The position numbers were made by a program, and so were the translations under genes. Positions 16,423 to 39,445 of a stretch of DNA of 64,000 bases are shown here, in pieces (within the stretch, counting starts at the first letter, position 1; each line of letters opens with the position of its first letter). Source of the stretch: Vibrio echinoideorum (GTDB lineage Bacteria > Pseudomonadota > Gammaproteobacteria > Enterobacterales > Vibrionaceae); contig NZ_AP025483.1 of NCBI RefSeq assembly GCF_024347455.1, positions 3,224,001-3,288,000 on the forward strand. Reading direction: 5' to 3'. The notes beneath the pieces were generated by a model. The model was not told where the DNA came from. It did no database searches and worked only from the letters and a program-made list of their open reading frames with translations.

Positions 16423-16836
16423 TTACTCAGCAGCAGCTTCTGGCTTAGCTTCTTCTTCACGACGTGGTGCACGTTCTTCACGGTCATCACGACGAGGAGC
16501 ACGCTCTGCACGCTCTTCTTTTTGCTTAAGCATGATAGATTGCTCAGTCACAGCGCCTTTAGTGCGCATGATCATGTTACGTAGAACTGCATCGTTAAAA
16601 CGGAAAGCAGTTTCTAGCTCGTCCATCACTTCTTGGCCAGCTTCAACGTTCATAAGAACGTAGTGAGCTTTGTGAAGTTTATTGATTGGGTAAGCCATTT
16701 GACGGCGGCCCCAGTCTTCTAGACGGTGGATAGTACCACCAGCTTCAGTGATTGAACCAGTGTAACGCTCGATCATGCCAGCAACTTGCTCGCTTTGATC
16801 AGGGTGAACCATGAATACGATTTCATAATGACGCAT
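16423..16836 (-). CDS. rpsF: Ribosomal protein bS6
   Basis: The 137-residue small-subunit protein starts [18 protein letters not shown], with the conserved [20 protein letters not shown] centre. The C-terminus after about residue 105 is an Arg/Glu-rich tail ([13 protein letters not shown]) ending in Glu and Ala. In E. coli RimK adds glutamates to this end, and the tail here is a similar substrate. It is the first gene of the operon and is preceded by a structured leader and a strong promoter. Confidence 0.97.
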
Positions 16837-16860
16837 TTGGTTGCTCCTTACGGATTATTA

Positions 16861-16919
16861 GCTTCCACGAAAGGCTCGGTCGTCCAAGGGAAGCAAGGAA
16901 CTAAAGAAAAATGACCGAG
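16861..16919 (-). promoter_or_regulatory. rpsF 5' leader structure (candidate S6:S18 autoregulatory motif)
   Basis: In the transcript, CTCGGTC (complement of 16913-16919) can pair with GACCGAG (complement of 16875-16881). Alternatively GCTTCC and GGAAGC (16889-16894 with 16861-16866) enclose the sequence GGACGACCGAGCC. An S6:S18 complex is known to bind a CCG-containing bulge in rpsF leaders of many bacteria and repress the operon. The position and the ACCGAG core fit, but the fold was assigned by eye. Confidence 0.5.
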
Positions 16920-34981: not shown

Positions 34982-35228
34982 GAATACGTTCTCTAAAAAT
35001 CGATCGTTGACTATATAAAAATCAAAAGAACAAGAATAGTAAACCGTGATGCTTTTGGGAGACAAGCACTCAAGTGTAAGTTCTATGAAAAATACTGCTC
35101 AAAACACGTCTGTTCTGGTCAATACCACTAAGATCCGTTAAGATCCGCCCCCATTTTTGCCGAACCTAATTTTAATTAGCCTTATCTCTAATTGTAAAAC
35201 AGAGAAAATAAGAATTAAGAATGAAGCC

Positions 35229-36371
35229 ATGAATCTAGACCATCTTGCTGAAAAAATTAAAATCTGGGGAAAAGAGCTAGGCTTTCAAAAAGTTGGCATC
35301 TGTGATGTCGATTTAAGTGAACACGAAGCCCCTCTTCAAACATGGCTAGATGCTGGCAATCACGGCGAAATGGATTGGATGGCACGACATGGCATGATGC
35401 GAGCTCGCCCTAATGAGCTTCATCCTGGTACCATTCGAGTGATCAGCGCCCGAATGAACTACCTACCACCAGAAGCTCAGTTTGCCTCTAACCTAAGCGA
35501 TACCACTCAAGGCTATATCAGCCGTTATTCTTTAGGCCGCGATTATCACAAATTGTTCCGTAACCAGTTGAAAAAGCTGGGACAAAGAATTGAGAAAGAA
35601 GTCGAAGGTTTAGACTCGCGTCCTTTCGTGGATTCAGCGCCTATTTTAGAAAGACCGCTTGCTCAAAAAGCAGGGCTTGGATGGACAGGAAAACATTCGC
35701 TAATTTTAGATAAAGACGCGGGGTCTTGGTTCTTCCTAGGAGAACTGCTCGTTAACATCCCTCTCCCAGTAGATACGCCAAGTATCGATGAGTGCGGGAA
35801 ATGTACCGCATGTATCACTTCTTGCCCAACGGGTGCCATTATTGCTGATGGCGTAGTGGATGCTCGCAAGTGTATCTCTTACCTCACCATTGAATACGAT
35901 GGCGTCATACCTGAAGAGTATAGAGACGCAATTGGTAACCGTATCTACGGTTGTGATGACTGCCAGTTAGTTTGCCCGTGGAATCGCCATGCCGAACTCA
36001 CAGAGCAAAAAGACTTTCATCGCAGAGAAGATTTTCAAGAAGCCGATCTGGTTTCACTTTCAAGTTGGGACGAAGCAACCTTCCTGAAGAAAATGGAAGG
36101 CTCAGCAATAAGACGCATCGGCCACACCCAGTGGTTGCGCAATATCTTTGTTGCTATGGGCAATGCGCCATTTCAACAACGTATTGTTGAAACACTGGAA
36201 TCTCATCAAGGCAAAAACGACATGTTGGATGTGCATATTGAGTGGGCTTTGGAAAAACAACTACAGCAGTTGCCGAATGCCAGTAGCATCCAAGAAGGCA
36301 AGAATAAAGTCTCCACCAAAAAGCACAGACTTATCCGTATCGTGGAAAAAGGACTACCGAGAGACGCCTAG
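35229..36371 (+). CDS. queG: Epoxyqueuosine reductase QueG
   Basis: The start ATG 35229 gives MNLDHLAEKI (380 aa); the longer frame lacks an RBS. The enzyme uses cobalamin and two 4Fe-4S clusters to complete queuosine in tRNA. Cluster motifs are CGKCTACITSCPTGA and, after the linker, CDDCQLVCPWN. An N-terminal domain contains the substrate region and FVDSAPILERPLA. A C-terminal HEAT-like region ends the protein. It diverges from tsaE. Confidence 0.96.
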   Translation: MNLDHLAEKIKIWGKELGFQKVGICDVDLSEHEAPLQTWLDAGNHGEMDWMARHGMMRARPNELHPGTIRVISARMNYLPPEAQFASNLSDTTQGYISRYSLGRDYHKLFRNQLKKLGQRIEKEVEGLDSRPFVDSAPILERPLAQKAGLGWTGKHSLILDKDAGSWFFLGELLVNIPLPVDTPSIDECGKCTACITSCPTGAIIADGVVDARKCISYLTIEYDGVIPEEYRDAIGNRIYGCDDCQLVCPWNRHAELTEQKDFHRREDFQEADLVSLSSWDEATFLKKMEGSAIRRIGHTQWLRNIFVAMGNAPFQQRIVETLESHQGKNDMLDVHIEWALEKQLQQLPNASSIQEGKNKVSTKKHRLIRIVEKGLPRDA

Positions 36372-37003
36372 CCTTTAGGTACCAACGATTGGCGGACTAA
36401 CGGACACCAACAGTCCAAGATTTAAGACAACTCGTTGCACATAATTTTAGAACAATGTTTGACCTTGTTCTCAATTTTAACAATGTGGAAAAAATTCAGA
36501 TCTCTCGTAAACTTCCGACACCCTCACAAAGTTAAACACAGTAGCGATAAATGATTAAGATCAAAAAACAATAAGTTAACGATCTTTTGTCAAATTCAAG
36601 ATGAGTAGTCAACTTGATAAAAAACAACAAGTTACGATCGCCTCAATTCAGCTAATATATTGAAAACAAGAAAGATCTTTTAGAGATATGTAAAGAATTA
36701 AGCCTGAAATAACTTTATCAACCAAGTTATCCACATCCGACTTATTGTGGATAAGTCTGTTTATAGATGTGAAAAACCTCAAGTATCTGCTTCAGAGACC
36801 TGATGTTTACTAGCATTCCAGTTGCTAAGAAAAATTTAAGACAAAAAAATATCCACCATGATGGAGGATTATTTGCTTTTTGGGGGGATTATGCTTCGCA
36901 GCATTAAAGAAAGAGCGTGACCTTTAAGGTCGCCTTTAAACTCTGTGATCTAAAGAAAAACACGGTGGTTTAAAGAATCTTAATAGCTTTTTAAGAAGAA
37001 AGC
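36372..37003. promoter_or_regulatory. datA-like AT-rich region with paired DnaA boxes
   Basis: The region carries no gene. Two perfect DnaA boxes face each other: TTATCCACA at 36727-36735 and TGTGGATAA at 36746-36754, with a 10-nt spacer. Two more match the TTWTNCACA consensus in reverse (36484-36492, TGTGGAAAA; 36768-36776, TGTGAAAAA), and 36532-36540 has one mismatch. TATCAA (36716) and TTGATA (36614) are IHF-like cores, and several GATC sites occur. It lies between queG and the Gly-tRNA array, where I recall E. coli having datA, its DnaA-titrating and DnaA-ATP-hydrolysing site. A regulatory role is inferred from both facts. Confidence 0.6.
36843..36869 (-). terminator. Terminator of the tRNA array
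   Basis: ATCC-CCA and TGG-GGAT form a stem with one T-T mismatch (36851-36869), followed on minus by T7. It ends the long tRNA transcript before the DnaA-box region. Confidence 0.75.
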
Positions 37004-37079
37004 TGGAGCGATACATCGGGTTCGAACCGATGACCTCAACCTTGGCAAGGTTGCGCTCTACCAACTGAGCTAGTATCGC
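37004..37079 (-). tRNA. tRNA-Gly(GCC), copy 1 (promoter-distal)
   Basis: The 76-nt gene encodes CCA. The anticodon arm is CAACC-TTGCCAA-GGTTG and the T arm has GGTTCGAACCC. The acceptor is GCGATAC/GTATCGC. The D loop has AGTTGG, shared only with the promoter-proximal copy. Confidence 0.97.
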
Positions 37080-37156
37080 ATTAGTTAACCGTTAATCCTG
37101 TCTGCTAAGAAGCTAAGTGCTTACTGCAAGGCAGTGACCAACGTGTAACTGTAATG

Positions 37157-37233
<77 letters not shown>

Positions 37234-37293
37234 TCCGGATGCATTGTTTAAGACAATGAGTCTATTTCCCAACATCAATCCTAAGAAAGAAAT

Positions 37294-37369
37294 TGGAGCG
37301 ATACATCGGGTTCGAACCGATGACCTCAACCTTGGCAAGGTTGCGCTCTACCAGCTGAGCTAGTATCGC
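37294..37369 (-). tRNA. tRNA-Gly(GCC), copy 2
   Basis: The same gene as copy 1 except AGCTGG in the D loop. Confidence 0.97.
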
Positions 37370-37465
37370 TTAGTTAACCGTTAAACTTGTCTGCTAGAAG
37401 CTAGGTTATTACGACAATAAACTAGGTTCTTACTGCAAAGAAGCTATCAACGTTTAGCTGTAATG

Positions 37466-37542
<77 letters not shown>

Positions 37543-37602
37543 TCCGGATGCATTGTTTAAGTCAATGAGTCTATTTCCCAACATCAATCCTAAGAAAGAA
37601 AT

Positions 37603-37678
37603 TGGAGCGATACATCGGGTTCGAACCGATGACCTCAACCTTGGCAAGGTTGCGCTCTACCAGCTGAGCTAGTATCGC
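37603..37678 (-). tRNA. tRNA-Gly(GCC), copy 3
   Basis: AGCTGG form of the D loop; otherwise identical to the other copies. Confidence 0.97.
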
Positions 37679-37754
37679 TTAGTTAACCGTTAATCCTGTC
37701 TGCTAAGAAGCTAAGTGCTTACTGCAAGGCAGTGACCAACGTGTAACTGTAATG

Positions 37755-37831
<77 letters not shown>

Positions 37832-37891
37832 TCCGGATGCATTGTTTAAGACAATGAGTCTATTTCCCAACATCAATCCTAAGAAAGAAAT

Positions 37892-37967
37892 TGGAGCGAT
37901 ACATCGGGTTCGAACCGATGACCTCAACCTTGGCAAGGTTGCGCTCTACCAGCTGAGCTAGTATCGC
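37892..37967 (-). tRNA. tRNA-Gly(GCC), copy 4
   Basis: AGCTGG form; identical body. Confidence 0.97.
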
Positions 37968-38042
37968 TTAGTTAACCGTTAAACTTGTCTGCTAGAAACT
38001 AAGTTCTTACTGCAAAGAAGCTATCAACGTTTAGCTGTAATG

Positions 38043-38119
<77 letters not shown>

Positions 38120-38179
38120 TCCGGATGCATTGTTTAAGTCAATGAGTCTATTTCCCAACATCAATCCTAAGAAAGAAAT

Positions 38180-38255
38180 TGGAGCGATACATCGGGTTCG
38201 AACCGATGACCTCAACCTTGGCAAGGTTGCGCTCTACCAGCTGAGCTAGTATCGC
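38180..38255 (-). tRNA. tRNA-Gly(GCC), copy 5
   Basis: AGCTGG form; identical body. Confidence 0.97.
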
Positions 38256-38330
38256 TTAGTTAACCGTTAAACTTGTCTGCTAGAAGCTAAGTGCTTACTG
38301 CAAAGAAGCTATCAACGTTTAGCTGTAATG

Positions 38331-38407
<77 letters not shown>

Positions 38408-38467
38408 TCCGGATGCATTGTTTAAGTCAATGAGTCTATTTCCCAACATCAATCCTAAGAAAGAAAT

Positions 38468-38543
38468 TGGAGCGATACATCGGGTTCGAACCGATGACCT
38501 CAACCTTGGCAAGGTTGCGCTCTACCAGCTGAGCTAGTATCGC
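38468..38543 (-). tRNA. tRNA-Gly(GCC), copy 6
   Basis: AGCTGG form; identical body. Confidence 0.97.
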
Positions 38544-38618
38544 TTAGTTAACCGTTAAACTTGTCTGCTAGAAACTAAGTTCTTACTGCAAAGAAGCTAT
38601 CAACGTTTAGCTGTAATG

Positions 38619-38695
<77 letters not shown>

Positions 38696-38755
38696 TCCGG
38701 ATGCATTGTTTAAGTCAATGAGTCTATTTCCCAACATCAATCCTAAGAAAGAAAT

Positions 38756-38831
38756 TGGAGCGATACATCGGGTTCGAACCGATGACCTCAACCTTGGCAA
38801 GGTTGCGCTCTACCAGCTGAGCTAGTATCGC
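38756..38831 (-). tRNA. tRNA-Gly(GCC), copy 7
   Basis: AGCTGG form; identical body. Confidence 0.97.
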
Positions 38832-38906
38832 TTAGTTAACCGTTAAACTTGTCTGCTAGAAACTAAGTTCTTACTGCAAAGAAGCTATCAACGTTTAGCT
38901 GTAATG

Positions 38907-38983
<77 letters not shown>

Positions 38984-39043
38984 TCCGGATGCATTGTTTA
39001 AGACAATGAGTCTATTTCCCAACATCAATCCTAAGAAAGAAAT

Positions 39044-39119
39044 TGGAGCGATACATCGGGTTCGAACCGATGACCTCAACCTTGGCAAGGTTGCGCTCTA
39101 CCAGCTGAGCTAGTATCGC
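39044..39119 (-). tRNA. tRNA-Gly(GCC), copy 8
   Basis: AGCTGG form; identical body. Followed by the same long type B spacer as copy 2. Confidence 0.97.
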
Positions 39120-39215
39120 TTAGTTAACCGTTAAACTTGTCTGCTAGAAGCTAGGTTATTACGACAATAAACTAGGTTCTTACTGCAAAGAAGCTATCAA
39201 CGTTTAGCTGTAATG

Positions 39216-39292
<77 letters not shown>

Positions 39293-39369
39293 TCCGGATG
39301 TTTCTTTTTTACGTCATAAACGCTTAAGTCAATGACTCTATTTCCCAACATCAATCCTAAGAAAGAAAT

Positions 39370-39445
39370 TGGAGCGATACATCGGGTTCGAACCGATGAC
39401 CTCAACCTTGGCAAGGTTGCGCTCTACCAACTGAGCTAGTATCGC
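39370..39445 (-). tRNA. tRNA-Gly(GCC), copy 9 (promoter-proximal)
   Basis: First gene of the transcript. The D loop is AGTTGG as in copy 1, so the two terminal copies share a variant that the seven internal copies lack. Confidence 0.97.

Follow-up and report, generated by a model that had tools for sequence, protein, structure and literature searches.

What occupies the gap between queG and a large tRNA array on chromosome 1 of Vibrio echinoideorum? The gap, 632 bp without genes (36372–37003), lies in a stretch of 64,000 nucleotides (contig NZ_AP025483.1, positions 3,224,001 to 3,288,000), which we call ‘the window’ and whose coordinates are used throughout. In Escherichia coli, queG and the tRNA-Gly(GCC) genes likewise flank datA (94.7 min), the locus of datA-dependent DnaA-ATP hydrolysis (DDAH), a switch that assists in shutting off replication of the chromosome. 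An initial annotation, made from the letters of the window, proposed a datA-like DnaA-binding site here, and that proposal is supported by the place, by the order of the elements, and by a word at boxes 7 and 2 shared with E. coli datA. We regard the site as the probable Vibrionaceae orthologue of datA (probability roughly 0.7), a non-coding replication-control element at which DnaA-ATP hydrolysis is predicted to occur, because it occupies the same locus, presents box 7, box 2, a site for integration host factor (IHF) and box 3 in the same order and orientation, and contains the shared word. As far as sequence goes, the homology to datA could hardly be firmer.

The array consists of six conserved DnaA boxes—three near-consensus and three weak—around one fixed IHF-type site. 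Its parts are given below, with box numbers as in E. coli datA and with counts from 45 loci, chosen by queG, that are described later.

36484..36766, no strand: the whole conserved module, datA-like; 283 bp, C1:3260484–3260766.
36484..36492, minus strand: box 3-like DnaA box TTTTCCACA; TTTTCCACA in 40/45 loci, TTGTCCACA in 4/45, broken in one.
36532..36540, plus strand: weak DnaA box TTAAACACA, oriented opposite to box 3; TTANNCACA in 44/45 loci, TTAATAACA in one.
36551..36564, no strand: conserved block ATGAYNNRGATCAA with no assigned binder; in 35/45 loci, missing from eight Photobacterium loci, Enterovibrio and L033.
36559..36584, no strand: GATC (Dam) pair, 22 bp apart, at 36559 and 36581; in 35/45 loci.
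36622..36634, plus strand: candidate IHF site AAACAACAAGTTA; 8/9 positions of WATCAANNNNTTR.
36674..36677, no strand: third conserved GATC; precedes the plus box by 52 or 53 bp in 32/45 loci.
36715..36723, plus strand: weak DnaA box TTATCAACC, 12 bp start to start (3-bp gap) before the strong plus box; a top-five non-overlapping 9-mer.
36727..36735, plus strand: strong box TTATCCACA, the mirror facing box 2, without an E. coli datA counterpart; TTATCCACA in 37/45 loci, TTACCCACA in 8/45.
36746..36754, minus strand: strong box TTATCCACA, corresponding to box 2 of E. coli datA; TTATCCACA in 32/45 loci, one substitution in the other 13.
36758..36766, minus strand: weak DnaA box CTATAAACA, separated from box 2 by 3 bp and corresponding to box 7 (TTGTAAACA) of E. 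coli datA; NNNTNNACA in 39/45 loci.

Two of the weak boxes, 36532–36540 and 36715–36723, were absent from the initial annotation, which had listed further consensus boxes besides the strong pair. One of those, 36484–36492, is conserved; the other, TTTTTCACA at 36768–36776 on the minus strand, is present in the window, but its word occurs at the aligned place in just 5/45 loci and it was rejected as part of the module. The strong plus box, opposite in orientation to box 2, is conserved as TTAYCCACA in 45/45 loci; 39 loci have 10 bp between the two boxes, the other 6 have 9 bp. The block ATGAYNNRGATCAA contains the first GATC of the 22-bp pair.

The likeness to E. coli datA begins with the locus. 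Searched by tblastn with E. coli proteins, the window reads psd-rsgA-orn-tRNA-Gly-(site)-queG-tsaE, the order of E. coli MG1655 (psd, rsgA, orn, glyV-X-Y, datA, queG); the position and gene order claimed at the outset are thus matched, though nnr, which in E. coli stands between queG and tsaE (here 35065–35232), was unmatched within the window. Distances to oriC are comparable, ~331 kb or 9.2% of chromosome 1 for the module and ~467 kb or 10.1% for E. coli datA, near enough for early duplication. On its minus strand the window then presents the weak box CTATAAACA, 3 bp, TTATCCACA, the IHF-type core and TTTTCCACA, which is the E. coli series of box 7, box 2, IHF site and box 3 in order and orientation, with the same 12 bp from box 7 to box 2, start to start. 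The shared word, ACAGA(C/G)TTATCCACA, occurs in 38/38 Enterobacterales loci with an exact box 2 and, box variants allowed, in 44/45 Vibrionaceae loci; excluded from the first count were 10/48 non-Vibrionaceae loci without an exact box 2, from Shewanella, Pseudoalteromonas, Psychromonas and Bowmanella, where no such array follows queG. Calling TTGTAAACA box 7 of E. coli is our own assignment; it is supported by length, since from there to box 3 (TTATTCACA) is 183 bp, the size published for minimal datA (PMC5742627). The proteins that such an element would need are encoded as well. DnaA residues R281, R285, L290 and R334, required for DDAH in E. coli (PMC5742627), are conserved, and domain IV, which binds DNA, is identical to that of E. 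coli at 91/94 positions. IhfA and IhfB score above the NCBIfam cut-offs, and SeqA is encoded.

Might AT-rich DNA have thrown up such a cluster of words resembling DnaA boxes merely by chance? The region was described at first as AT-rich, gene-free and ~630 nt long, and its 632 bp are indeed 34.3% G+C, against 44.9% in the window. Exact boxes TTATCCACA number 38 in the genome (5.74 Mb, 4 contigs) and the reversed-word control 39, so DnaA boxes are not enriched genome-wide. The two perfect inverted boxes originally reported are confirmed as exact copies of TTATCCACA at 36727–36735 (+) and 36746–36754 (−), convergent, with 10 bp between them. The Poisson chance of two exact boxes within 632 bp is 8.7e-6, and close exact convergent pairs (gap 4–20 bp) occur twice in the genome, against 0.001 expected. 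On these genome counts, and on the conservation described below, a chance cluster was rejected; we give it next to no weight.

The second close pair in the genome has a 5-bp gap and the core of a DnaA-reactivating sequence (DARS). Close convergent pairs are general in the genus: 144/148 genomes have at least one and 117, counted from the table, exactly two; among the matches listed, one member of the usual two has a gap of 5 bp and the other a gap of 9–10 bp, and the letters within the gaps vary. The module might then be taken for a third DARS site, its strong boxes facing one another as DARS boxes I and II do, and head-to-head contact is prominent in DARS (PMC5742627). In E. coli DARS1 and DARS2, and in this genome's own pair at C1:2278258, however, the gap is 5 bp and TGTGGATAACCA or TGTGGATAACAT comes after it, whereas the module has a gap of 9–10 bp and the flank TGTGGATAA(C/G)TCTGT; and a DARS1-type core and a DARS2-type cluster lie elsewhere in the same genome. 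The module was rejected as a DARS by gap, flank and locus, and we consider this explanation very improbable. DARS2 also uses IHF.

The DARS-type loci are of interest in themselves. The DARS1-type core (C1:2278258–2278280; L110/L188) has convergent exact boxes, a 5-bp gap and the flank TGTGGATAACCA, and the 5-bp-gap pair recurs in most genomes among the matches listed; unlike at E. coli DARS1, uvrB was not noticed by eye in the 5.5 kb around it. The DARS2 counterpart (C1:2932066–2932194; L187) is a DnaA-box cluster between rppH and mutH, with 120 bp from the start of one convergent exact box to the start of the other, against 119 bp in E. coli DARS2. Both fit the DARS-like sites published for Vibrio cholerae (PMC6090056, PMC8682772). 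The module resembles oriC, too, in having box sets of opposite orientation and an IHF site, but it is not beside mnmG and mioC. A GATC-rich DnaA-box cluster that we take to be oriC lies elsewhere, at C1:3591.5–3592.0 kb, between open reading frames (ORFs) read as mnmG (named by eye from its translation) and mioC (likewise, and by a weak tblastn match), and the module was accordingly rejected as oriC. Beyond this group, DnaA-box clusters of Bacillus subtilis and Streptomyces, outside oriC and said to restrain initiation, have been described as datA analogues (PMC5742627, PMC10950094); the comparison with these is one of description.

How widely is the module conserved? A composite pattern, TGTGGANAA-N220..250-TTAYCCACA-N9..10-TGTGSATAA, was derived from the first named relatives and searched in 196 genomes of the genus. 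It occurs once per genome in 181 of them, and its reversed control occurs in none. Of the 15 genomes that miss it, 13 have queG; one of these loci ran off its contig, leaving 12 readable. All 12 keep the convergent pair with small changes, and 11 the box 3-like site too: 11 carry a single-letter change in the minus-strand strong box, which reads TTACCCACA or TTATCCACT, and L157 combines two intact strong boxes with a broken box 3-like site. The paired boxes, whose absence from related Vibrio had been named beforehand as a refuting test, are therefore present in 181/196 genomes and in 12/12 readable misses. The two misses without queG are a 1.0-Mb reduced genome (G026) and an assembly that is 79% complete. 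Of the 181 pattern loci, 30 were read with their flanking DNA; within the stretch covered, queG lies on one side in 29 and a tRNA on the other in 28. In an order-level sample, the module was found in 23/23 Vibrionaceae members (21 of the same genus, 2 of another) and in 0/272 other genomes. A pattern with E. coli-type spacing matches 29 of these 295 genomes: 19/22 in one family, presumably the Enterobacteriaceae, and 10 elsewhere, two of the 10 being genomes of the window's genus.

An earlier ranking of conserved words used 76 loci (74 distinct) selected by the box pattern; it was circular for that reason and was not used, and the ranking was repeated on the 45 loci picked by queG. These comprise the window, 32 named Vibrionaceae and the 12 pattern misses, so that 12/45 come from genomes failing the box pattern and the sample is biased against the datA reading. 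For each, the 500 bp after queG were aligned; L145, whose contig ends 95 bp after queG, and L158, a second fragment of the L157 queG, were dropped. The best non-overlapping 9-mers begin at 36484 (TGTGGAAAA), 36727 (TTATCCACA), 36752 (the end of box 2 plus TCTGT), 36532 (TTAAACACA) and 36715 (TTATCAACC). All five are DnaA boxes or box flank. Weaker conserved blocks begin at 36619 (the IHF core), 36553, 36672 and 36576; the alignment as a whole averages 0.88 of 2.32 bits. Windows at 36376–36405 also rank, but in columns that are mostly gaps.

Between the outer boxes, the conserved features are the IHF-type core and the GATC sites. A core matching WATCAANNNNTTR at 8/9 positions or better precedes the plus box by 103–111 bp in 32/45 loci, on the strand of that box, and is perfect in 12; other position bands hold such a core in 0.95 loci on average and 9 at most. 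In E. coli datA the core (L001, 4310–4322) matches at every position and is oriented correspondingly. A second, less conserved IHF-like core is present in some loci, the window included. That the region is GATC-rich, as first described, holds: the 632-bp gap has 6 GATC against 1.97 expected, a number reached in 28/2000 mononucleotide shuffles. Between box 3 and the strong pair the loci have 3.0 GATC per 235 bp against 0.64 expected, with 0/200 shuffle sets as high. A GATC pair spaced 20–24 bp, mostly 22, occurs in 35/45 loci, against a mean of 0.385 and a maximum of 3 in shuffles; the loci without it are the 8 of Photobacterium, that of Enterovibrio and, within Vibrio, L010. The pair at 22 bp, in most Vibrionaceae loci, counts among the differences from E. 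coli datA; the 38 Enterobacterales loci have 1.1 GATC on average.

If the module works as E. coli datA does, passage of the fork would duplicate the site, and IHF would bind and bend the DNA. The bend would bring ATP-DnaA on the tandem weak–strong boxes 7 and 2 against DnaA on box 3, where contacts of the arginine finger and sensor 2 would trigger ATP hydrolysis and release ADP-DnaA, which is inactive in initiation. The datA biochemistry in the papers we cite, as far as their available parts go, is E. coli work.

Several points weigh against this reading. Vibrio and E. coli differ in spacing, with 111 bp against 56 bp from box 2 to the IHF core and 129 bp against 84 bp from the IHF core to box 3, and the module measures 283 bp against 183 bp. 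Spacing and orientation matter in E. coli datA (PMC5742627, PMC10380432), and the window does not keep the intervals that separate box 2, the IHF site and box 3 in the E. coli DDAH element; a comparison of helical phase between the two sets of spacings, by hand arithmetic, gave nothing clear. Boxes 7, 2 and 3 share one orientation, and an opposite strong box is conserved with them; strong boxes in both orientations are a feature of the Vibrionaceae element and not of E. coli datA. The inverted pair that stood out in the initial annotation is what E. coli datA lacks; of its two members, the minus-strand one alone corresponds to box 2. The box 7-like site is weak, and 6/45 loci depart from NNNTNNACA there; the IHF-type core scores just 7/9 in 13/45. 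The window's own core (36622–36634) has one mismatch and is not significant alone, 53% of shuffles reaching its score; what stands of the IHF-like cores of the initial annotation is the place conserved across loci. Finally, the reduced genome G026 has neither queG nor the module and retains a DARS1-type pair.

Since the E. coli spacing is not kept and the strong boxes point both ways, the main rival is titration without catalysis, in which the boxes would sequester DnaA near oriC and form no catalytic complex. It was as a DnaA-binding locus that datA was first described (PMC5742627), and spacing unlike that of E. coli, together with the convergent strong pair, would suit such a role. A fixed IHF-type site and conserved weak boxes exceed what titration needs, however, and six boxes are few beside the genome's 38 exact boxes plus unlisted near-consensus ones. 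On balance we think titration alone unlikely, and prefer a datA orthologue that would hydrolyze DnaA-ATP.

Judged by its letters, the Vibrionaceae element does not simply repeat E. coli datA; it has a mirror-image half in addition. A second weak–strong pair (TTATCAACC, 3 bp, TTATCCACA), which E. coli datA lacks, faces box 2 across 10 bp, and the core reads as two mirror-image weak–strong modules 10 bp apart. A further extra is the weak box TTAANCACA, 39 bp inside box 3 and inverted relative to it; E. coli datA has instead box 4, outside box 3. The facing pair may nucleate another ATP-DnaA subcomplex, opposite in polarity to the first and served by the same IHF bend, much as the two halves of oriC seed subcomplexes of opposite polarity (PMC5742627). 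The GATC pair, for its part, might let Dam and SeqA mark newly replicated copies. We offer, tentatively and as rather less probable than not, the combination of these: a two-sided datA, with mirror ATP-DnaA platforms about one IHF bend, in which the Dam-site pair of vibrios would place IHF and DnaA loading under SeqA control and so tie inactivation to fork passage. Were this true, E. coli datA would be the one-sided form of an older or parallel design, and a two-chromosome cell would couple DnaA inactivation on chromosome 1 to the passing replication fork. For E. coli datA, what times the binding of IHF is stated to be unknown (PMC10950094).

The neighboring genes bear on a further explanation. 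They are:

35232..36371, plus strand: queG, from the ATG at 35232; convergent with the tRNA array; its product shares 63% identity with E. coli QueG (383 positions aligned).
37004..39445, minus strand: tRNA array of 17 alternating genes, 9 Gly-GCC and 8 Met-CAT, transcribed toward the module.

A site located after a large tRNA array might serve as a transcription roadblock, with DnaA and IHF halting transcripts from the array, or from queG, in the convergent gap. At E. coli datA, box 2 and IHF attenuate read-through, and read-through transcription displaces IHF (PMC10950094); read-through from the tRNA array might do the same here. Such a role is compatible with datA function; as the whole explanation it appears improbable, as the number and geometry of the boxes go beyond what a roadblock needs. 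A 1.1-Mb reduced genome of the same genus (G125; L189, C10:53000–60000) argues against it too, and in favor of the datA reading. It keeps the whole module between orn and tsaE, beside tRNA-Met and tRNA-Gly; the IHF core of this copy is perfect and precedes the plus box by 105 bp. No queG was found next to the module, though the tRNAs remain. No terminator is claimed for the array, since a scan of 36300–37010 found none and the RNA fold of 36838–36925 (−) is no better than shuffles (z −0.55). A promoter scan gave one site against 1.8 expected.

Among open-access papers we found none that describes datA in Vibrio in its title or at the start of its abstract, and an earlier mention is possible. 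In the available parts of the V. cholerae literature (PMC3937223, PMC6090056, PMC8682772), DARS-like sites are mentioned and datA is an analogy for RctB sites on chromosome 2; in the first two papers it is just that comparison. Some bacteria may have datA-like sequences near oriC (PMC6727663). V. cholerae is the model of two-chromosome replication, and the probable chromosome 1 datA orthologue is now precisely placed. The Vibrio element offers a second natural geometry in which to ask how box orientation, spacing and IHF bending yield DnaA-ATP hydrolysis, and the conserved GATC pair offers a testable link from datA to Dam and SeqA.

Some smaller observations concern the surroundings. The nearest named relatives of this QueG are in the Vibrio splendidus group, at 93–95% identity. 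The tRNA array is far larger than that of E. coli and has Met tRNAs intermixed; the E. coli counterpart of the 17 genes at 37004–39445 is three tRNA-Gly genes. Antisense to the tRNA genes, at 37154–39113 (+), run seven near-identical ORFs of 69 amino acids (MWLREPDLNRRPSGYEPDELPNC...), which resemble translation artefacts of tRNA DNA. Farther off, 16834–16916 (−) matches the RpsF leader of Rfam (RF02893) at 39.6 bits, the cut-off being 37.
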